50,763 nucleotides of DNA from positions 1 through 50,763 of the forward strand of contig CAMBGQ010000008.1 of assembly GCA_945866215.1 (NCBI GenBank). Reading direction: 5' to 3'. The notes beneath the pieces were generated by a model. The model saw only the letters and a program-made list of their open reading frames with translations. It ran no database searches and was not told the origin of the DNA. The DNA comes from Opitutus sp. GAS368. Lineage in GTDB: Bacteria > Verrucomicrobiota > Verrucomicrobiia > Opitutales > UBA953. Both the position numbers and the translations under genes were made by a program. Within the stretch, counting starts at the first letter, position 1. Every line of letters starts with the position of its first letter. Positions 9,842 to 47,858 of this stretch are shown piece by piece.

Positions 9842-9866
9842 GTCAGCACGCAGTGCTGACCCTACC
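9842..9866 (-). repeat. Repeat C (REP-like) single unit at the 3' end of the aminotransferase gene
   Basis: On the minus strand it reads GGTAGGGTCAGCACTGCGTG followed by CTGAC: a GGTAGG head then an 8-bp perfect stem (GTCAGCAC/GTGCTGAC) with a 3-base loop. The TAG stop of the aminotransferase gene (9862-9864) is supplied by this head. The head-plus-palindrome layout is that of REP sequences. It could act as a 3'-end stabiliser, but it has no U-tract and so is not a classic terminator. Confidence 0.7.
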
Positions 9867-10995
9867 TGTTAAATGTCTTCACGACCGTGGTTATCACGCG
9901 GTCGCGATCTTCGGAGGACATGCCGGCGCCGGAAGGGAGGCAGAGGCCTTGGTCGAAGAGGCGTTCGCTGATTTTGCCGCCATGCATCTCGGCAGAAGCA
10001 AAGACGGGCTGGAGGTGCATGGGCTTCCAGACGGGACGGGCTTCGATGTTCTCAGCCTCGAGCGCGAGACGGACCTGCTCGCGGGTGACTCCGGCGAGGA
10101 CGGGATCGATGGTGAGGCAAGTGAGCCAGTGGGTCGATTGTCCCCACGAGGCTTCGGGCTGCATGGTCACGCCGGGCAGAGTCTTGAACGCTTCGGCGTA
10201 GGCTTTGAAGTGTCCACGACGCCGAGAGACTTTGCCGGAGAGACGCGTGAGCTGGCCGAGGCCGATACTGGCCGAGATATTACTGAGTCGGTAGTTATAG
10301 CCGATGGTAGAATGCTGATAATGCGGAGCGGCGTCGCGGGCCTGGGTAGCGAGGAAGCGCGCTTGCTTGGCCAATTCGGCATCATCGGTAACGAGCATAC
10401 CGCCGCCACCGGTGGTGATGATTTTGTTGCCGTTAAAGGAATGGATGCCAGCGAGTCCGAAAGAACCAGGTGAAGCTTCGCCATAAGTCGCGCCAAGCGC
10501 CTCGGCCGCATCTTCGATGAGCTTTACGCCATGTTTATCACAACAGGCTTTGATGGGCGTGATATCAGCCGATTGGCCATACAGATGCACGAGGACGAGG
10601 GCCTTGGGCGTCTTGCCGACCTTGGCCTTCTGCTCGATGACCGCGCACGCCAGCGCGGGATCGATATTCCAGCTAAGTTCTTCGGAATCGATGAAGACGG
10701 GCTTGGCCCCGAGATAGGTAATGGGCGCGGCGGAGGCGACGAAGGTCAGCGAGGAACAGAGGACTTCGTCGCCTGGACCGACGCCAGCGAGTCGCAGAGC
10801 AAGATGCAAGGCCGCAGTGCCGGAAGAAACAGCGACGGCATGTTTCGAGCCGACGAGTACAGCGAAATCTTGTTCGAAGGCATCGAGATTGGGCCCGGCA
10901 GGTGCAATCCAATTGGATTGGAAAGCTTCTAGGACGAGTTCAATTTCGGTACTACCTACGTCTGGAGGGGAGAGGTAAAGGCGAGGGAGAGACAT
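9862..10995 (-). CDS. DegT/DnrJ/EryC1-family sugar aminotransferase
   Basis: The 377-residue PLP enzyme transfers an amino group to a keto sugar nucleotide. The substrate-loop motif AVSSGTAALHLAL is at about 54-66 and the PLP-binding lysine is Lys191 in SFNGNKIITTGGGG. EDAAEALGA at 161-169 provides the aspartate that contacts the PLP ring nitrogen. The sequence resembles PglE-type enzymes that make UDP- or dTDP-4-amino-4,6-dideoxy sugars. RfbB (7885) could supply dTDP-4-keto-6-deoxyglucose, and the NeuD/PglD-like acyltransferase at 12391 could acylate the new amine. The stop codon lies inside a REP-like unit. The donor nucleotide is inferred, not proven. Confidence 0.88.
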   Translation of the reverse strand: MSLPRLYLSPPDVGSTEIELVLEAFQSNWIAPAGPNLDAFEQDFAVLVGSKHAVAVSSGTAALHLALRLAGVGPGDEVLCSSLTFVASAAPITYLGAKPVFIDSEELSWNIDPALACAVIEQKAKVGKTPKALVLVHLYGQSADITPIKACCDKHGVKLIEDAAEALGATYGEASPGSFGLAGIHSFNGNKIITTGGGGMLVTDDAELAKQARFLATQARDAAPHYQHSTIGYNYRLSNISASIGLGQLTRLSGKVSRRRGHFKAYAEAFKTLPGVTMQPEASWGQSTHWLTCLTIDPVLAGVTREQVRLALEAENIEARPVWKPMHLQPVFASAEMHGGKISERLFDQGLCLPSGAGMSSEDRDRVITTVVKTFNR

Positions 10996-11015
10996 GAGAT
11001 TAAGGGGGTAAAAGC

Positions 11016-11658
11016 TTCGGGTGGCAGGTGGCGGCCTCAGGTGGCGGGTGGCGGGAAAGGCGAATGCTTAGCGCCAAAGGGAAACCGGAGACTGGATAGT
11101 TAGCTGAGGTAAAAGTTTCGGGTGGCGGGTGGCAGCCCCGGGTGGCGGGTGGCGGGAAGTGCCTAGGACGCAGTGAGGAGTGTCTGTGATTTAACGGAAG
11201 GTCAGAGAGACAATAGTGACTCTATGTGTGCTGCACCTGTTGAACTTCGTGTCCTTGTTCTAGCGAATGAGCTTTCCGAAAGAATCTATCGCCTAACTGA
11301 TGGCCGCGAATATCGGGGAGACGGCGTGCTGAGGAATCAGATTCGAAGGGCGGGGCTTTCTGTCTCCAGCAATATCGCCGAGGGCGACGGAAGGAGATAC
11401 AGCAAGGAAGGGATGCGGTTCTTTCAGATTGCGATCGCCTCGGCCGAGGAATGCAAAAGCCAGCTTAGCGTAGCAGGCAAACTGGGCGCTATTCCCCGAG
11501 ATGAGGCAGCGCGCGCGATTGATGACTTTTCCGTTGTTTGCAGGATGCTGAATCGGCTCATCGTGTCCCGTAAATCTAGGGGCGACGGCCTAGAATAGCC
11601 CGCCACCCGAAATGGGCCGCCACCTGCCACCCGAGGCTGCCACCCGCCACCTGAAACT
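11016..11658. repeat. Repeat A1: palindromic element enclosing a four-helix-bundle protein gene
   Basis: Two left arms (11016-11055 and 11116-11156) carry TTCGGGTGGC and GGCGGGTGGCGGG words. The right arm (11599-11658) is their inverted complement, with CCCGCCACCCG, GCCACCTGCCACCCG and a CACCTGAAACT end. Between the two left arms is an A-type core (AAACCGGAGACTGGAT). Other A elements have loops of about 10 to 100 bp. This one contains the plus-strand gene 11224-11598, whose TAG stop is followed at once by the right arm. Type 'repeat' is used because mobility is not shown. Confidence 0.85.
11224..11598 (+). CDS. Four-helix-bundle protein (23S rRNA intervening-sequence protein / S23 family)
   Basis: The 124-residue protein has the family hallmark LRNQIRRAGLSVSSNIAEG followed by GRRYSKEGMRFFQIAIASA. 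An N-terminal helix (VELRVLVLANELSERIYRLT) and a C-terminal helix complete a predicted four-helix bundle. Relatives are encoded inside 23S rRNA intervening sequences and resemble the Avd accessory protein of diversity-generating retroelements; their biochemical role is poorly known. The ATG at 11224 gives the family's normal length; an in-frame start at 11173 is less likely. It is the only plus-strand gene between 1 and 38 kb and lies wholly within an A-type palindrome, its stop touching the right arm. Confidence 0.9.
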   Translation: MCAAPVELRVLVLANELSERIYRLTDGREYRGDGVLRNQIRRAGLSVSSNIAEGDGRRYSKEGMRFFQIAIASAEECKSQLSVAGKLGAIPRDEAARAIDDFSVVCRMLNRLIVSRKSRGDGLE

Positions 11659-11666
11659 GTTCATTC

Positions 11667-12389
11667 CTACTTCCACTTCTGATCCACAAACACTCCCAGC
11701 CTGCTAAGCTCGTTAAACAGTATGCTGTTCGCGGGATCTGCAATTAATTCCTCGACCCTTTGGCCGCTGGAGATGCGGACAAACATCTGCTCATTTTTCT
11801 GATTAATTCCATACGCCCGAATATCTTTCCAGACGAGGGGTAAGCGTTCGAGTCGACCAATAATTCCATTCCTCCAACCGGCTTGCTGATCTTGGTAACG
11901 ATTAGGTTCACCGTTCACGAGATGCCAAAAGGCGACATTCTGCTTCCCTCCGTTGGGCACGATATATTGGCCATATTCATACGGCAGGAGCTCGCGCTCC
12001 CCCACTCTGCCGGGCACGGCGTATAGTCGCTCGGTACGTACGCAGCCGTTATTCACCCAGCATGAATCGGGATTATGCGAGCCGGCATCGACGACCGATA
12101 CTTTGCCGGGCTCCCAGTAAGCGACGTAGACGAGCATCTGGACGCCGCCACGGGAGTAAAGGACCTGCTTTGCCTGGCTGAAATTAAGGATGCCCTGCGC
12201 GCTGGCCAGCGCGGCCGATGTGCCCGCAATGGGAATCTCGCGACGCGTCCAGCCAGGGACTTCCGGCAAAGTCGCCCCGAGCTCGCCAGTAAAACCCCGC
12301 GGGCGCGCCGGCGCGAACTCCGAAAGGAGCACGAGGGCCAGCAGGCCGGCCAGCATGACGCCACCGAAGATGAGCAGGGCTTTCCGCAT
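11667..12389 (-). CDS. Exosortase-associated EpsI-family protein
   Basis: The protein has about 240 residues with one N-terminal membrane segment (ALLIFGGVMLAGLLALVLL, near residues 3-21), then a periplasmic domain. Visible family features are LPEVPGWTRREIPI, VAYWEPGKVS and HNPDSCWVNNGC, matching the EpsI (DUF3485) pattern of a conserved tryptophan followed by an H-P-x-x-C stretch. EpsI proteins accompany exosortases in exopolysaccharide loci; their biochemistry is unclear. The ATG at 12389 directly follows the acyltransferase stop with a 1-bp gap. No exosortase gene is seen in this window. The right arm of repeat A1 lies 8 bp beyond its stop. Confidence 0.7.
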   Translation of the reverse strand: MRKALLIFGGVMLAGLLALVLLSEFAPARPRGFTGELGATLPEVPGWTRREIPIAGTSAALASAQGILNFSQAKQVLYSRGGVQMLVYVAYWEPGKVSVVDAGSHNPDSCWVNNGCVRTERLYAVPGRVGERELLPYEYGQYIVPNGGKQNVAFWHLVNGEPNRYQDQQAGWRNGIIGRLERLPLVWKDIRAYGINQKNEQMFVRISSGQRVEELIADPANSILFNELSRLGVFVDQKWK

Positions 12390-12390
12390 G

Positions 12391-13017
12391 TCAGAGGATT
12401 CGCGCCGGAATACCGACGACGGTGACGCCCGCCGGGACATCTCTCACGACGACGGCGCCAGCGCCGACGATCGAACGACTGCCGACGGACTTGCCGGGGA
12501 TGATGCTGGCCCGGCTACCGAGAAAGACGCGGTCCGCCACGCGCACGTGGCCGGTGATATCACACTGGGCGCTGAGTGAGGTCCAAGGTCCGAGCGAAGC
12601 ATCGTGGCCGATAGTGGAATTGAGGTTCACCATGGCGAAATCGCCGATTTCGATATCAACGGAGAGGATGGCCCCGGGGCAGATGACCACGCCTTGGCCG
12701 AGTTTCACCCGGGCGCCGAGATGGGCTTGGGGGTGGACGAAGGTAAGAAATTCCGCCCCTGCGGCGACGAGCGGCGCGACAAGCTGCTCCTTGAGCGAGG
12801 GCATGCCGAGGCCAGCGAGGTAGACGGTGTCCGCCGAGGGCTTGTGGCCGGCAAGCGCATGCACGGGTGCGAAGCGTCCGAAAGGGGCGAGGGCGTCCGC
12901 GTTGTCGTCCAGAAAGCCAGCCAAGGTCCAAGCACGGCCGCAGTCCGGATGCTGGCTGGCCCAGACGTAGAGTTCGCGGCCGAAACCGCCGGCGCCGACG
13001 ATCAGGAGTTTTTTCAT
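12391..13017 (-). CDS. NeuD/PglD-family sugar acyltransferase (left-handed beta helix)
   Basis: The 208-residue protein has an N-terminal Rossmann-like PglD domain (LLIVGAGGFGRELY) and a C-terminal hexapeptide-repeat helix with GARVKLGQGVVICPGAIL-like turns. The catalytic base is probably His138 in STIGHDA. The family acylates the amino group of 4-amino sugars (PglD) or hydroxyls of sialic acid (NeuD). It overlaps the acyl carrier protein start by 4 bp, and KAS III follows upstream. A carrier-bound acyl group rather than acetyl-CoA may therefore be the donor. That specificity is inference from gene order. Confidence 0.85.
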   Translation of the reverse strand: MKKLLIVGAGGFGRELYVWASQHPDCGRAWTLAGFLDDNADALAPFGRFAPVHALAGHKPSADTVYLAGLGMPSLKEQLVAPLVAAGAEFLTFVHPQAHLGARVKLGQGVVICPGAILSVDIEIGDFAMVNLNSTIGHDASLGPWTSLSAQCDITGHVRVADRVFLGSRASIIPGKSVGSRSIVGAGAVVVRDVPAGVTVVGIPARIL

Positions 13018-14344: not shown

Positions 14345-14354
14345 CGACGAATCG

Positions 14355-14447
14355 TTTCAGGTGGCGGGTGGCGGCCTCAGGTGGCGGGTGGCGGGCTATT
14401 CATTTCCTGCCACCTGGGGCCCGGGGCCGCCACCCGCCACCCGAAGC
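14355..14447. repeat. Repeat A2 (short form)
   Basis: The left arm TTTCAGGTGGCGGGTGGC continues with a GGCCTCAGGTGGCGGGTGGC word. A short loop (CTATTCATTT) follows, then the right arm CCTGCCACCTGGGGCCCGGG and GCCACCCGCCACCCGAAG. The arms are near-perfect inverted complements about 40 bp long. The element is followed directly by a pair of C units. Confidence 0.85.
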
Positions 14448-14455
14448 TGTTTCTT

Positions 14456-14548
14456 GGTAGGGCTGACCATCCTTGGTCGGCCGCGGTCGAGCAGGGATGC
14501 TCGACCCTACCCAAGGCTGCTAGGACAGCACGTGGTGCTGTCCCTACC
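14456..14548. repeat. Repeat C group (three REP-like units) after the asparagine synthase gene
   Basis: The plus strand starts GGTAGGGCTGACCATCCTTG and ends its first pair with the inverse TCGAGCAGGGATGCTCGACC and CTACC. This gives two head-to-head units, each a GGTAGGG head plus palindrome, with an enclosing GGTAGGG/CCCTACC stem. A third unit (14523-14548) faces the asnB stop: GGACAGCAC/GTGCTGTCC followed by CTACC. In the coding direction this third unit begins 2 bp after the asnB stop. Confidence 0.75.
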
Positions 14549-17630: not shown

Positions 17631-17764
17631 GAGGGCCGGAGAGATACGCTTAGAAGAGGCTTAGAGGGACGCAGGAGTTGAACAGTTGATCGGTTGGCCA
17701 GTTGGCCAGGGAGACGAACTAGCTGGCCAGTTGACAAGTTGACTAGGGGGCAAGGGAGGAAACG

Positions 17765-17942
17765 TTTCGGGTGGCGGGTGGCAGCCTCAGGTGGCGGGTG
17801 GCGGGAGAAAGATGGCACCCAAGGGGAGGCCGGATGATTGGCTGGGGATATTATGACCGAAGCAAACTTTCCGGTTCCCGGTCTCCCTTTGAGTGCAAGT
17901 TATCCTGCCACCTGGATCCCGAGGCTGCCACCTGCCACCCGT
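17765..17942. repeat. Repeat A3 (long form) in a 317-bp gap
   Basis: The left arm is TTTCGGGTGGCGGGTGGC and the right arm ends GCCACCTGCCACCCG. The 95-bp core includes GGCCGGATGATTGGCTGGGG, GATATTATGACCGAAGC and TTTGAGTGCAAGTTATCC. Cores nearly identical to this are in A5 and A12. The rest of the gap (17631-17764) holds short words of TTGGCCAGTTGGCCAG and AGTTGACAAGTTGAC type and no gene. Confidence 0.85.
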
Positions 17943-17947
17943 AGCGA

Positions 17948-19315: not shown

Positions 19316-19334
19316 GAGTGGAGAGACGATTGAG

Positions 19335-19490
19335 TTTCGGGTGGCGGGTGGCAGCCTCAGGCGGCGGGTGGCGGGAGAAACATGTCACCCGAAGAATATA
19401 AATGAAGCAAACTTCCCGGCTCCAGGTCTCCCTTTGAGTGCAAGTTATCCTGCCACCTGGAACCCGGGGCCGCCACCTGCCACCCGGAAC
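19335..19490. repeat. Repeat A4 (long form with shortened core)
   Basis: It starts TTTCGGGTGGCGGGTGGC and ends GCCACCTGCCACCCGGAAC. Its core keeps the right half of the A3 core (CTCCCTTTGAGTGCAAGTTA) but lacks the GGATGATTGGCTGG part, so it looks like an internal deletion of the long form. Confidence 0.85.
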
Positions 19491-19500
19491 TTGTTATCTT

Positions 19501-20823: not shown

Positions 20824-20838
20824 TTGAATCAGATTTCG

Positions 20839-21019
20839 TTTCGGGTGGCAGGTGGCGGCCTCAGGTGGCGGGTGGCGGGAGAAAGATGGCACCCAAGGGG
20901 AGGCCGGATGATTGGCTGGGGATATTATGACCGAAGCAAACTTCCCGGTTCCCGGTCGACCTTTGAGTGAAAGTTATCCTGCCACCTGAATCCCGGGGCT
21001 GCCACCTGCCACCCGAAAC
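20839..21019. repeat. Repeat A5 (long form)
   Basis: The arms match A3 (TTTCGGGTGGCAGGTGGC and GCCACCTGCCACCCGAAA). Its core is almost identical to that of A3, including GGCCGGATGATTGGCTGGGG and CGAAGCAAACTTCCCGG. It separates the ligase gene from the reductase gene. Confidence 0.87.
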
Positions 21020-21025
21020 TTTGTC

Positions 21026-21758: not shown

Positions 21759-21775
21759 AGAGACGGAGGCAAAGC

Positions 21776-21868
21776 TTCGGGTGGCGGGTGGCAGCCTCAG
21801 GTGGCGGGTGGCGGGGCTAAATATTTCCTGCCACCTGGACCCCGGGGCCGCCACCTGCCACCCGGAAA
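21776..21868. repeat. Repeat A6 (short form)
   Basis: It has a left arm TTCGGGTGGCGGGTGGC, a loop of about 10 bp (TAAATATTTC) and a right arm CTGCCACCTGGACCCCGGGG with GCCACCTGCCACCCGGAA. The near-perfect hairpin would be about 90 nt. It separates the SDR gene from the second ACP gene. Confidence 0.85.
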
Positions 21869-21888
21869 TGGTTAGGGTACCAGGCCTC

Positions 21889-23406: not shown

Positions 23407-23429
23407 CTAATTAGGGGGCAGTATCAAAC

Positions 23430-23520
23430 TTCGGGTGGCAGGTGGCGGCCGCAGGTGGCGGGTGGCGGGTAATTTACTTCCTGCCACCTGAATCCCGGGG
23501 CTGCCACCTGCCACCCGGAA
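23430..23520. repeat. Repeat A7 (short form)
   Basis: It has a left arm TTCGGGTGGCAGGTGGC, a loop TAATTTACTT and a right arm CCTGCCACCTGAATCCCGGG with GCCACCTGCCACCCGGAA. The central GGCCGC in the left arm replaces the usual GGCCTC. It lies between wecB and the glycosyltransferase gene. Confidence 0.85.
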
Positions 23521-23531
23521 CTTGTTTCGGC

Positions 23532-24724: not shown

Positions 24725-24740
24725 AAAAGGGGGACAACGC

Positions 24741-24830
24741 TTCGGGTGGCGGGTGGCAGCCTCAGGTGGCGGGTGGCGGGATTGATATGCCTGCCACCTG
24801 AACCCCGGGGCCGCCACCTGCCACCTGAAA
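24741..24830. repeat. Repeat A8 (short form)
   Basis: It has a left arm TTCGGGTGGCGGGTGGC, a loop ATTGATATG and a right arm CCTGCCACCTGAACCCCGGG with GCCACCTGCCACCTGAAA. It separates wecB from the heparinase-like gene. Confidence 0.85.
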
Positions 24831-24838
24831 CGATGTCT

Positions 24839-26770: not shown

Positions 26771-26786
26771 TGGACGAAAAACTGGC

Positions 26787-26868
26787 TTCGGGTGGCGGGT
26801 GGCAGCCTCAGGTGGCGGGTGGCGGGAGAAAGATAGCAGCCAAGGGGGACCGGATGATTAGCTGAGGG
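26787..26868. repeat. Repeat A9 (left arm and core only)
   Basis: The left arm TTCGGGTGGCGGGTGGC runs to 26826, followed by an A core (CCGGATGATTAGCTGAGGG). The right arm is missing; repeat B copy 2 begins in its place. The 362-bp gap 26771-27132 is thus filled by A9, B2 and C2 in a row and holds no gene. Confidence 0.8.
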
Positions 26869-26875
26869 AAACACA

Positions 26876-27024
26876 TTTTCAGGTCTCGGGTCTCGGCAGC
26901 CGGGAGCCAGGTTCAGGTGTTCAGGTTCGGGTACAGGTTCAGGACCTGAATATTGCCCGTACCCGCACCTGTACCTGATAACCCGTACCAGAGACCCGAG
27001 GGCCGAGACCTGGGACCCGAAAAT
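26876..27024. repeat. Repeat B, copy 2
   Basis: It begins TTTTCAGGTCTCGGGTCTCG and ends GAGACCTGGGACCCGAAAA. The inner words (GGGAGCCAGGTTCAGG, GTACCTGATAACCCG) match copies 1 and 3. It forms an imperfect long hairpin and follows A9 directly. Confidence 0.78.
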
Positions 27025-27031
27025 GTTTCTT

Positions 27032-27088
27032 GGTAGGGCTGACCATCCTTGGTCGGCCGCGGTCGAGCAGGGATGCTCGACCCTACCC
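27032..27088. repeat. Repeat C pair, copy 2 (REP-like)
   Basis: It is essentially identical to the pair at 14456: GGTAGGGCTGACCATCCTTG on one side and the inverse unit ending GATGCTCGACCCTACC on the other, joined by GGCCGCGG. Predicted fold: an outer 7-bp stem with two inner hairpins. Confidence 0.78.
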
Positions 27089-27132
27089 AAGGCCATCACT
27101 CCTCCGATACTCTATACTCGATACTCCATACT

Positions 27133-28356: not shown

Positions 28357-28418
28357 GGGAGTCGAGGAAAGGAGGGGATGGTGGACAAGAGGGCCGGAGG
28401 ACAAGGAGAGACGAATCG

Positions 28419-28480
28419 TTTCGGGTGGCGGGTGGCGGCCTCAGGTGGCGGGTGGCGGGGATATTGGCAGCCACCTGAGG
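28419..28480. repeat. Repeat A10 (right arm truncated)
   Basis: A complete left arm TTTCGGGTGGCGGGTGGC is followed by a short loop (GATATTGGCA). The right arm is cut to GCCACCTGAGG, which still pairs with CCTCAGGTGGC of the left arm. The element is about 60 bp. Confidence 0.75.
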
Positions 28481-32224: not shown

Positions 32225-32232
32225 AAGAATCG

Positions 32233-32325
32233 TTTCGGGTGGCAGGAGGCGACCTCAGGTGGCGGGTGGCGGGAGAAAGATAGCAGCCAAGGGGAAACCG
32301 GAGACCGGATGATTGGCTGGAGTCA
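32233..32325. repeat. Repeat A11 (left arm and core only) in a 585-bp repeat mosaic
   Basis: A variant left arm (TTTCGGGTGGCAGGAGGC) ends at 32273. The A core follows, with AAACCGGAGACCGGATGATT and GGCTGG. The right arm is replaced by repeat D. The gap 32180-32764 has no gene and consists of F, A11, D1, C3 and B3 in series. Confidence 0.8.
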
Positions 32326-32330
32326 TTTAT

Positions 32331-32480
32331 TCAGGTGACGGGTGACGGCCGCGGGCATCGGGGATTCAGGTTTCGGCTTCTCGGCCATCAGCCGCGGGTG
32401 CCTGGAGCCGGCTGCCGAAGGCTGAACGGTTGATTCCCGAAAGGCCGACGACCCGGTGGCCGTCACCCGTCACCCGAAAC
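32331..32480. repeat. Repeat D, copy 1
   Basis: Inverted ends: TCAGGTGACGGGTGACGGCC on the left and GGCCGTCACCCGTCACCCGA on the right. Inner words include TCGGCCATCAGCCGCGGGTG, CCTGGAGCCGGCTGCCGAAG and GAACGGTTGATTCCCGAAAG. A second copy is at 39911. The architecture resembles A but with different words (GGTGACGG instead of GGTGGCGG). Confidence 0.75.
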
Positions 32481-32488
32481 TGTTTCTT

Positions 32489-32544
32489 GGTAGGGCTGAC
32501 CATCCTTGGTCGGCCGCGGTCGAGCAGGGATGCTCGACCCTACC
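32489..32544. repeat. Repeat C pair, copy 3 (REP-like)
   Basis: Near-identical to the pairs at 14456 and 27032: GGTAGGGCTGACCATCCTTG, then GGCCGCGG, then the inverse unit with GAGCAGGGATGCTCGACCC. It lies between D1 and B3. Confidence 0.78.
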
Positions 32545-32557
32545 AAAGGCAGAGACA

Positions 32558-32717
32558 TTTTCAGGTCACGGGTCTCGGCAGTCGGGAGCCAGGTTCAGGT
32601 TTTCAGGTACAGGTACAGGTACAGGTACAGGTTCTGGATCTGAATTTTACCCCGCACCCGCTCCTGTACCTGATAACCCGTACCTGAGACCTGAGGGCCG
32701 AGACCTGAGACCCGAAA
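32558..32717. repeat. Repeat B, copy 3
   Basis: It begins TTTTCAGGTCACGGGTCTCG and ends GAGACCTGAGACCCGAAAA. A four-unit run of the hexamer ACAGGT at 32605-32630 makes its left half longer than in the other copies and suggests slippage. Confidence 0.78.
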
Positions 32718-32764
32718 ATGCATTGCCTCTGGCCCTCAGATTCTCTGGCCCTCCGGTCCTCCAA

Positions 32765-33739: not shown

Positions 33740-33787
33740 GGCGGGAGAGAATAAGGGGTAGGGACAGGGGTGGGGGTAGGAAAATTG

Positions 33788-33968
33788 TTTCGGGTGGCGG
33801 GTGGCGGCCTCAGGTGGCGGGTGGCGGGGAAAGATGGCACCCTAGGGTAGACCGGATGATTGGCTGGGGATATTATGACCGAAGCAAACTTTCCGGTTTC
33901 CGGTCTCCCTTTGAGTGAAAGTTATCCTGCCACCTGGATCCCGAGGCTGCCACCCGCCACCTGAAACT
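33788..33968. repeat. Repeat A12 (long form)
   Basis: The arms are TTTCGGGTGGCGGGTGGC and GCCACCCGCCACCTGAAA. The core is near-identical to A3 and A5, with GACCGGATGATTGGCTGGGG, GATATTATGACCGAAGC and TTTGAGTGAAAGTTATCC. It lies between kdsB and kpsF. Confidence 0.87.
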
Positions 33969-33980
33969 ATGTTTGCGGAG

Positions 33981-34760: not shown

Positions 34761-34819
34761 AGATACGAAGTTGATGAGTTGACCAGGGGCTTGGAGGATC
34801 AGGAGAGAGGCGATTTAAC

Positions 34820-34907
34820 TTCGGGTGGCAGGTGGCAGCCTCAGGTGGCGGGTGGCGGGTAAATAATCCTGCCACCTGGGACCCGGGGCCGCCACCTGCC
34901 ACCCGAA
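34820..34907. repeat. Repeat A13 (short form)
   Basis: It has a left arm TTCGGGTGGCAGGTGGC, a loop TAAATAAT and a right arm CCTGCCACCTGGGACCCGGG with GCCACCTGCCACCCGAAG. It separates kdsB from the fcl-gmd block. It is the promoter-proximal end of the A series. Confidence 0.85.
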
Positions 34908-34916
34908 GCGATGCCT

Positions 34917-47485: not shown

Positions 47486-47628
47486 GGACACAGGATGACG
47501 GAACTCGGTCCTGCGTGAAGCGCAAACGGCGGCGCCTAGGCGCATGAAAGGGGCGACACGACGGCGCCCGCCGCACTCCGGCTTGACGGACCAAAGGGGC
47601 CAGGCAGGATGGCCACATTCTTGAGAAC

Positions 47629-47702
47629 GCGGGTATCGTTCAGTGGTAGGACCCCACTTTCCCATAGTGGTGACACCAGTTCGAATCTGGTTACCCGCTC
47701 CA
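47629..47702 (+). tRNA. tRNA-Gly (CCC)
   Basis: The 74-nt cloverleaf has acceptor stem GCGGGTA/TACCCGC, anticodon arm CCACT-TTCCCAT-AGTGG with anticodon CCC, T arm ACCAGTTCGAATCTGGT and encoded CCA. It differs from the next tRNA mainly in the anticodon arm and variable region, so one was probably derived from the other by duplication. TTGACG at 47584 could be a -35 element, but no good -10 follows. Confidence 0.95.
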
Positions 47703-47723
47703 GGAGTAGCCCCGGGCCGAGGC

Positions 47724-47752: not shown

Positions 47753-47768
47753 GAACATCCTTGGTTTC

Positions 47769-47842
47769 GCGGGTATCGTTCAGTGGTAGGACACCACTCT
47801 TCCAAAGTGGATACACCAGTTCGAATCTGGTTACCCGCACCA
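47769..47842 (+). tRNA. tRNA-Gly (TCC)
   Basis: The 74-nt cloverleaf has the acceptor stem GCGGGTA/TACCCGC, anticodon arm CCACT-CTTCCAA-AGTGG with anticodon TCC and encoded CCA. The D and T arms are identical to those of tRNA-Gly(CCC) upstream. It lies 16 bp from the 3' end of the convergent HNH gene. Confidence 0.96.
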
Positions 47843-47858
47843 AGGAAAACGCCGGGCC

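Follow-up and report, generated by a model that had tools for sequence, protein, structure and literature searches.

The window, by which we mean the whole stretch of 50,763 nucleotides analysed here, is a single contig of a 1.9-Mb genome that is 85% complete (G000). We show that the gap between two of its minus-strand genes, encoding a DegT/DnrJ aminotransferase identified by Pfam (9862..10995) and a 257-aa protein without a Pfam match (11667..12440), holds an element, A1 (11,007-11,661), in which a plus-strand gene of the S23/IVP four-helix-bundle family is enclosed by inverted pairs of GGTGGCR heptamers. An initial sequence-only reading had described a complete plus-strand gene of the 23S rRNA intervening-sequence protein (IVP) family in the loop of A1, with the right arm immediately adjoining the TAG stop codon, and both points are borne out. 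The gene, of 124 aa from its probable ATG, occupies 11224..11598; its TAG lies at 11596-11598, and the right arm (11599..11661, plus strand) follows directly, opening with CCCGCCACCCGAAA, a perfect complement of 11116-11129. The inverted arms were also correctly recognized, but the second left arm and the half-element between the left arms had been missed. A1 has two left arms and one right arm: the outer left arm (11007..11057, plus strand), built of tandem GGTGGCR units, is 90% identical to the inner one (11108..11158, plus strand), which pairs best with the right arm, and between them lies a plus-strand half-element of a second hairpin family (11073..11107, repeat family D8, AAAGGGAAACCGGAGACTGGATAG) that carries AAAGGGAAACCGGAGACTGG. 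Units like this half-element make up the arms of S23 genes in G001, G022 and G024, and a related genome, G051, carries three left arms at the A1 site. The main arms of A1 (11111-11155 and 11617-11661) are 45 nt long and 91% complementary. We scored the best inverted repeat between the 300 nt upstream of the S23 domain and the 200 nt downstream of the stop codon, with a threshold of 14; A1 scores 35, while the highest score among 384 randomly chosen positions with identical geometry was 22.5 and only 4 of the 384 reached 14. The A1 observation as such is confirmed. That this would be the only gene on the plus strand between 1 and 38 kb fits our data without being proven by them, given 19 longer plus-strand open reading frames without a Pfam match in that interval, which, at 164-506 aa, are among the longer ones there.

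Membership of the A1 protein in the S23/IVP family is supported by its match to PF05635 (84.3 bits, with a cut-off of 33.8), by its match to TIGR02436 (‘four helix bundle protein’) and by its similarity to a solved structure, PDB 2gsc (E 1.8e-10), described as a homopentameric S23 protein of Xanthomonas (PMC4990558). The reading frame is open from a GTG at 11173, and conservation in G007 is poor 5' of the ATG at 11224; this ATG (MCAAP...), which gives the 124-aa protein, is probably the conserved start. Comparison of the A1 gene with its counterpart in G051 yields a dN of 0.032 and a dS of 0.658, and all 12 S23 gene pairs computed have a dN below 0.1, with a dS that is above 0.6 or not computable. 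The S23 protein is under purifying selection. S23 proteins have no known catalytic role, and no recombinase, nuclease or reverse transcriptase domain was found in the element; both points weigh against the mobile-hairpin explanation developed below. Among the best 80 of 573 loci, the closest S23 genes from named relatives belong to uncultured Opitutae and other Verrucomicrobiota. G000 has a second S23 gene (L001), which is flanked by a different arm pair, CGTGGGGGAACTGCTGGCATGGTGAACTGCTGCG, with a score of 30.

The arms of A1 recur at 12 other loci in the window, as the sequence-only reading had stated, and the corresponding repeat family (D1) comprises 14 left-arm copies, two of them within A1. 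The claim that all 12 loci have the inverted arrangement of A1 holds for the left arms; at 26778..26847, 28411..28480 and 32225..32294, the last in a gap that contains several repeat families, no standard right arm (family D3) is listed. The other nine are gene-free hairpins, with approximate ends for all solo copies. Four of them have been assessed by DNA folding, at 14347..14452 (z -5.8), 21767..21872 (z -4.4), 23421..23526 (z -7.4) and 34811..34915 (z -8.0), and the other five lie at 17757..17947, 19327..19494, 20831..21022, 24732..24838 and, with a longer loop, 33780..33973. The copy at 17757-17947 has a second hairpin nested in its loop (AAGGGGAGGCCGG / CCGGTTCCCGGTCTCCCTTT) and is 96% identical to 20837-21015 and 81% identical to 33785-33963. 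Two further gene-free hairpins (26876..27032 and 32558..32727) belong to a GGTCWC repeat family, whose arm type also flanks S23 genes in G004 and G010. Across G000 the A arm word occurs 77 times and the reversed word 0 times. A separate repeat family of 91-94% identical copies (TTGGTAGGGCTGACCATCCTTGGTCGGC...GTCGAGCAGGGATGCTCGACCCTACC) adjoins A-type repeats at 14420-14517, 26996-27093 and 32453-32550. An Rfam scan of the window returned three tRNAs alone, with nothing on the arms and no rRNA, and a tRNA gene region is duplicated in tandem at 47615-47718 and 47755-47858.

Flanking arms are a general feature of S23 genes in the genus. A score of at least 14 was reached by 120 of 128 S23 genes and by 4 of 384 random positions, and when other open reading frames of the same loci served as controls the numbers were 115 of 123 and 6 of 227. 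Additional open reading frame controls gave 2 of 113 when restricted to frames shorter than 700 bp and 9 of 171 when restricted to neighbours of an S23 gene. From the 138 genus matches, 10 were left out of the random-position comparison for a short flank or a missing stop codon, 15 were left out of the comparison with other open reading frames, and 20, including cases with an internal stop or a short domain, were left out of the comparison of arms with sequence identity described below. Outside the genus, where random positions were the controls throughout, arms accompany 52 of 76 S23 genes in the phylum among the matches listed (controls 2/228; 77 loci, L005 being dropped for too little flank), 34 of 59 in other phyla from the best 80 of 573 loci (3/231), 16 of 30 in Xanthomonadales (0/90) and 11 of 15 on cyanobacterial plasmids (1/90). 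The sample from other phyla is uneven, since it was drawn from the best 80 of the 573 loci that a single peptide pattern retrieved; 3 of the 80 loci had a short flank, 18 Verrucomicrobiota loci stand outside the 59, and the controls come from the 77 usable loci. One Rhodanobacter gene (L305, identical to L408) is counted both there and under Xanthomonadales. The plasmid sample covers 15 of the 33 records, mostly cyanobacterial, that were matched by one S23 query. The same query found no match in 50,697 phage records at E 1e-4, and carriage by phages is thus without support from this one query. The excess over controls in the genus, the phylum, other phyla, Xanthomonadales and cyanobacterial plasmids indicates that the association of S23 genes with arms is general. 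In these four samples outside the genus, 24 of 76 (among the matches listed), 25 of 59 (from the best 80 of 573), 14 of 30 and 4 of 15 S23 genes score below 14, and with a quarter to half of the genes below threshold the association either falls short of being universal or has been lost by decay in many copies. The expectation that PF05635 genes of relatives would be linked to A-type arms is borne out only in its general form: inverted arms are the rule in the genus, but GGTGGC arms on both sides occur in 3 of the 138 genus matches, with GGTGAC arms in 4 more. A1 is nevertheless not a unique locus, and A-armed S23 genes occupy the same site in G007 and G051. Neither of the outcomes named as refuting the initial interpretation, unlinked PF05635 genes in relatives or a unique A1 locus, was observed, and that interpretation is partly supported.

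Comparison of the A1 site, the gap between the DegT and 257-aa genes, across 25 genomes revealed three states. Six sites are empty (4-47 nt), two hold gene-free repeats (a GTGCAAA hairpin in G062 and other repeat sequence in G019), and 17 hold S23 cassettes within gaps of 603-911 nt, with arms of the GGTGGC, GGTGAC, GGGGAAACCGG, GGTCWC or GTGCAAA type. The filled and empty sites for which a comparison of strains had been suggested are thus both found among these genomes, together with the gene-free state. Mapped onto a tree built from both flanking proteins, the states of the 25 genomes imply at least 11 changes, or 7 if filled sites only are counted; with 29 genomes the numbers are 13 and 9, the cassette in each of the four added genomes lying beside a single intact flanking gene (in G063, beside DegT and a fragment of the second gene). 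Cassettes differ between the sister genomes G007/G004, G048/G008 and G024/G046 and, among the added genomes, between G001 and G010. The flanking residues compared are 96% and 94% identical between G048 and G008, 95% and 90% between G000 and G056, and 93% and 88% between G024 and G046, while the S23 domains of these pairs are only 27%, 26% and 27% identical; between G000 and G051, flanks of 91% and 77% identity enclose S23 domains that are 94% identical. Near-identical flanks around S23 domains of 26-27% identity indicate that whole cassettes have been exchanged or re-inserted at the A1 site. Such exchange could also result from ordinary homologous recombination within a cluster of surface-sugar genes, a point that we count against a reading in terms of mobile hairpins. 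The site data also bear on the idea that slippage and fold-back copying alone build arms around any gene, S23 being merely a common small gene. Slippage can produce short tandem units, and the arm units are indeed short and tandem. However, arms at only 2 of 113 open reading frames of similar size in the same loci already disfavour this idea, and the six empty sites leave no room for such arms, so that we find it scarcely credible.

Gain and loss are not confined to the A1 site. Ten other genomes show a largely collinear version of the gene cluster, and 11 measured gaps besides A1 hold the A word in G000. Eight of these 11 gaps are at most 35 nt long, often with gene overlap, in at least one of G061, G021, G057 and G040; of the remaining three, one is long in all four genomes, one is long in the single genome in which it was measured, and one has no measurement. 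Other hairpin families occupy some of the same gaps in other genomes. Of 32 solo hairpins from 11 genomes, 24 match the S23 arm of another genome at a score of at least 16, compared with 3 of 32 reversed controls, and several of the unmatched ones resemble a different kind of repeat. The proposal that A1 is the full form of a hairpin element, with short A copies as its non-coding derivatives, is supported by these matches and by the coexistence of filled, gene-free and empty states. On the other side of the balance, many solo hairpins have no matching S23 gene in their own genome, which we also count against mobile hairpins. Inspection by eye of the flanks of nine solo copies showed no obvious target-site duplication.

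The genome-wide abundance of hairpin words tends to follow the presence of S23 genes. Among 55 genus genomes, the median density of two hairpin words is 16.5 per Mb in the 43 with S23 and 1.46 in the 12 without (p 1.7e-4), and the difference persists in genomes up to 1.9 Mb (13 versus 11 genomes, p 0.003). These tests ignore kinship, and the 12 S23-less genomes, which include one with a short sub-threshold fragment only (G006), are mostly small and not mutually independent. The two words also miss some families, as G040 and G052 have S23 genes but neither word. Again with kinship ignored, the A word is commoner in genomes with an A-armed S23 gene (p 0.013, n=3), and the GTGCAAA word in genomes with a GTGCAAA-armed S23 gene (p 0.0027, n=14). 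The incomplete genomes G016 and G011 have 42 and 32 A words without an A-armed S23 gene having been found, and the presence of such a gene is only a loose guide to A abundance. Among 25 genomes of other groups that carry S23, the word AGGTTATRAGGTTAT occurs 115 and 65 times where the S23 arms contain it (L291 and L323), 6 and 3 times in L327 and L296, whose arms have related GGTTAT units, and once in total across the remaining 21; over the whole set of 25, the reversed word is found twice. These counts bear on the question of whether S23 is a passenger, that is, cargo that survives best inside the loop of hairpins that are mobile by a route of their own. The 77 A words and two S23 genes of G000 speak for this possibility, as does the fact that hairpin families without a cognate S23 gene in the same genome are common. 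We nevertheless consider it unlikely, given the rarity of arms at other genes (6/227 far open reading frames, 2/113 under 700 bp, 9/171 next to S23), the scarcity of hairpin words in S23-less genomes and the agreement between arm word and S23 arm type in other phyla.

The arms themselves have a distinctive composition and mode of change. S23 arms are tandem arrays, with a best unit of 7 or 14 nt in 38 of 52 arms in the phylum (among the matches listed), 26 of 34 in other phyla (from the best 80 of 573 loci) and 12 of 16 in Xanthomonadales; in the genus, units of 6, 7, 8, 12 and 16 nt are common. On the gene strand the left arm has more G than C in 123 of 126 cases in the genus, 45 of 52 in the phylum, 30 of 34 in other phyla and 16 of 16 in Xanthomonadales, and it is over half purine in 123, 48, 26 and 15 of the same sets, the phylum and other-phyla figures again being for the matches listed and for the best 80 of 573 loci. 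Since the unit is palindromic, this tendency to a purine-rich 5' arm holds on both strands. As an exception to the simple inverted plan, the S23 gene of Pseudanabaena galeata (L441 1839-2518) has AAAAGCT/AAAAGCC heptamer arrays in the same direction on both sides and inverted ones further out. Among 118 genus genes, arms are mostly common to both members of S23 pairs that are at least 70% identical. At 55-70% (547 pairs) and 40-55% (2,683 pairs) domain identity, the median score between arms of different genes falls to 11 and 10, which is background, while the score between the left and right arms of the same gene stays at a median of 22.5. Left and right arms thus vary in concert while the genes keep 40-70% identity, and either a copying process through the hairpin or replacement of whole cassettes must act on them.

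A related system is the intervening sequence (IVS) of the Coxiella 23S rRNA, described as a 28-bp stem that is excised by RNase III, with tandem heptamers upstream of an S23 open reading frame (PMC4990558). According to the same source, this IVS is sporadically distributed, its mobility had been suggested by earlier authors cited there, and its S23 open reading frame is decaying. A1 resembles an rRNA IVS in having complementary arms around one S23 open reading frame and tandem heptamers upstream of it, and units of the A1 kind likewise have a sporadic distribution. A1 differs in location, as an IVS sits in a 16S or 23S rRNA helix and A1 lies between two protein genes, and it is therefore not a member of the rRNA IVS family as defined; Rfam found no rRNA in 20 named S23 loci. 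The A1 family further differs from the Coxiella IVS in its many gene-free copies, its genome-specific arms and the purifying selection on its gene. The common plan raises the possibility that the arms act in RNA, with RNase III cutting the stem and so removing the unit from host transcripts, and the co-directional placement of some units within operons would suit such a role. However, stem mismatches in 113 stems include 166 G.U pairs on the gene strand and 170 on the other, an even split, without any sign of selection at the RNA level. In addition, A1 runs antisense to the genes on either side, and Rfam found no rRNA in the window or in the 20 named loci. Action of the arms in RNA is, in our judgement, quite improbable.

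Miniature inverted-repeat transposable elements (MITEs) and REP/RAYT systems consist of short palindromes between genes, for which movement in trans has been proposed. The solo A hairpins are MITE-like in having terminal inverted repeats and no transposase, but, unlike in MITEs, their proposed full-length partner encodes S23 rather than a transposase. They differ from both MITEs and REP/RAYT systems in that this partner is a four-helix bundle and in that their arms are tandem arrays that change together, and Y1 transposase has no match in the 85%-complete G000. PF05635 has also been described as resembling Avd, a related four-helix bundle that is the accessory protein of the reverse-transcriptase systems known as DGRs (PMC10053308). 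In contrast to DGRs, RVT_1 has no match in 54 of 55 genus genomes, G000 among them. Movement in trans by a reverse transcriptase or a REP-type Y1 transposase would draw on the likeness to Avd and on the presence of Y1_Tnp in 28 of 55 genus genomes, but RVT_1 occurs in 1 of the 55, Y1_Tnp was found neither in G000 nor in the 99%-complete G019, and G049 has Y1_Tnp with neither S23 nor either hairpin word. We regard movement in trans as very unlikely here, and reverse-transcriptase-based movement as unlikely in its own right.

Our data offer good support for the view that S23 genes belong to mobile hairpin units, in which two inverted arms of short tandem units, often of 7 nt, surround one S23/IVP gene, and gene-free hairpins would be derivatives sharing the arms of full units. 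Such units are gained and lost in intergenic gaps, and whole gene-plus-arm cassettes replace one another at the same site. We infer that the S23 protein may move or maintain these hairpins. In the mechanism that we propose, the bundle, whose solved relative 2gsc is pentameric, would bind the arms in their DNA form and assist the replication or repair machinery of the host in copying them into new gaps, with unequal copying giving rise to tandem units and fold-back copying to matched arms. The explanation as a whole, a mobile hairpin family with S23 in which A1 is full-length, gene-free hairpins are derivatives and S23 acts on the arms, is one that we consider somewhat better than evenly supported. 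On our best reading, these are mobile hairpins and free-living relatives of rRNA intervening sequences.

Arms of this kind may also account for repeats described elsewhere. In Xanthomonas, inverted GGGAATC heptamer arrays have been reported, with 70 and 75 close inverted pairs in two genomes (PMC4692102); searches of the main text of that article give no hit for ‘S23’ or ‘four helix’. We found arms of GGGAATC or GGGATTC at the Xanthomonadales S23 genes L403 and L408. A link between cyanobacterial heptamer repeats and S23 arms is a lead, based on the plasmid arms, on published accounts of heptamers in Calothrix and Nostoc and on the wider literature. In the parts seen of the open-licence, non-preprint literature (PMC4990558, PMC4692102, PMC4679880, PMC10053308, PMC10910872 and PMC11637426), we did not find S23 genes tied to inverted tandem repeats outside rRNA. 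It is tempting, if still somewhat short of an even bet, to hypothesize that S23/IVP proteins mark out a class of bacterial transposable elements in its own right. Elements of this class would occur in many phyla, lack any known recombinase, encode a single small bundle protein and have self-rewriting hairpin arms, and they would be the shared origin of the orphan inverted heptamers in Xanthomonas, of rRNA intervening sequences and possibly of the cyanobacterial heptamer repeats. Gene-plus-hairpin units and gene-free copies in many bacteria point to a little-noticed kind of mobile DNA. S23/IVP proteins are annotated in many genomes as ‘four helix bundle protein’ without a function; should they be part of mobile hairpins, direct tests of their role become feasible. 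Two old puzzles, the role of the S23 open reading frame in rRNA IVSs and the origin of inverted heptamer repeats, would then join.

Several cyanobacterial S23 genes lie within CRISPR operons, for which relatives without S23 exist. Picosynechococcus PCC 7003 carries, between cas10 and cmr3, an S23 gene whose inverted arms are short (score 14.5), and in PCC 7002, whose Cmr3 is 91% identical, 12 nt take the place of the unit; no target-site duplication was seen in this one close comparison, in which the left junction is blurred. Anabaena sp. 90 has an S23 gene with AGGTGAC/AGGGAAC heptamers between cas6 and cas4, and in Dolichospermum UHCC 0315A, whose Cas4 is 98.5% identical, this site is filled by another sequence of 245 nt that lacks S23; the cas6-cas4 site measures 23 nt in Nostoc UHCC 0302 and 5 nt in Stanieria cyanosphaera PCC 7437. 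A figure legend on CRISPR-linked genes spells out ‘23S rRNA IVP’ (PMC10910872). If the mobile-hairpin explanation is true, caution is warranted in assigning the S23 genes of CRISPR operons to the CRISPR machinery, as they may be passengers. The S23 genes seen in this setting are L425 1977-2345, L429 1977-2333 and L441 2054-2413, in the order cas6-S23-cas4 twice and cas10-S23-cmr3 once. At the position of the Anabaena sp. 90 unit, Dolichospermum (L439 2237-2482) has a GTTGGGTTGACGC.../...GCTTAACCCAAC repeat, so that one gap holds different repeats in the two genomes.
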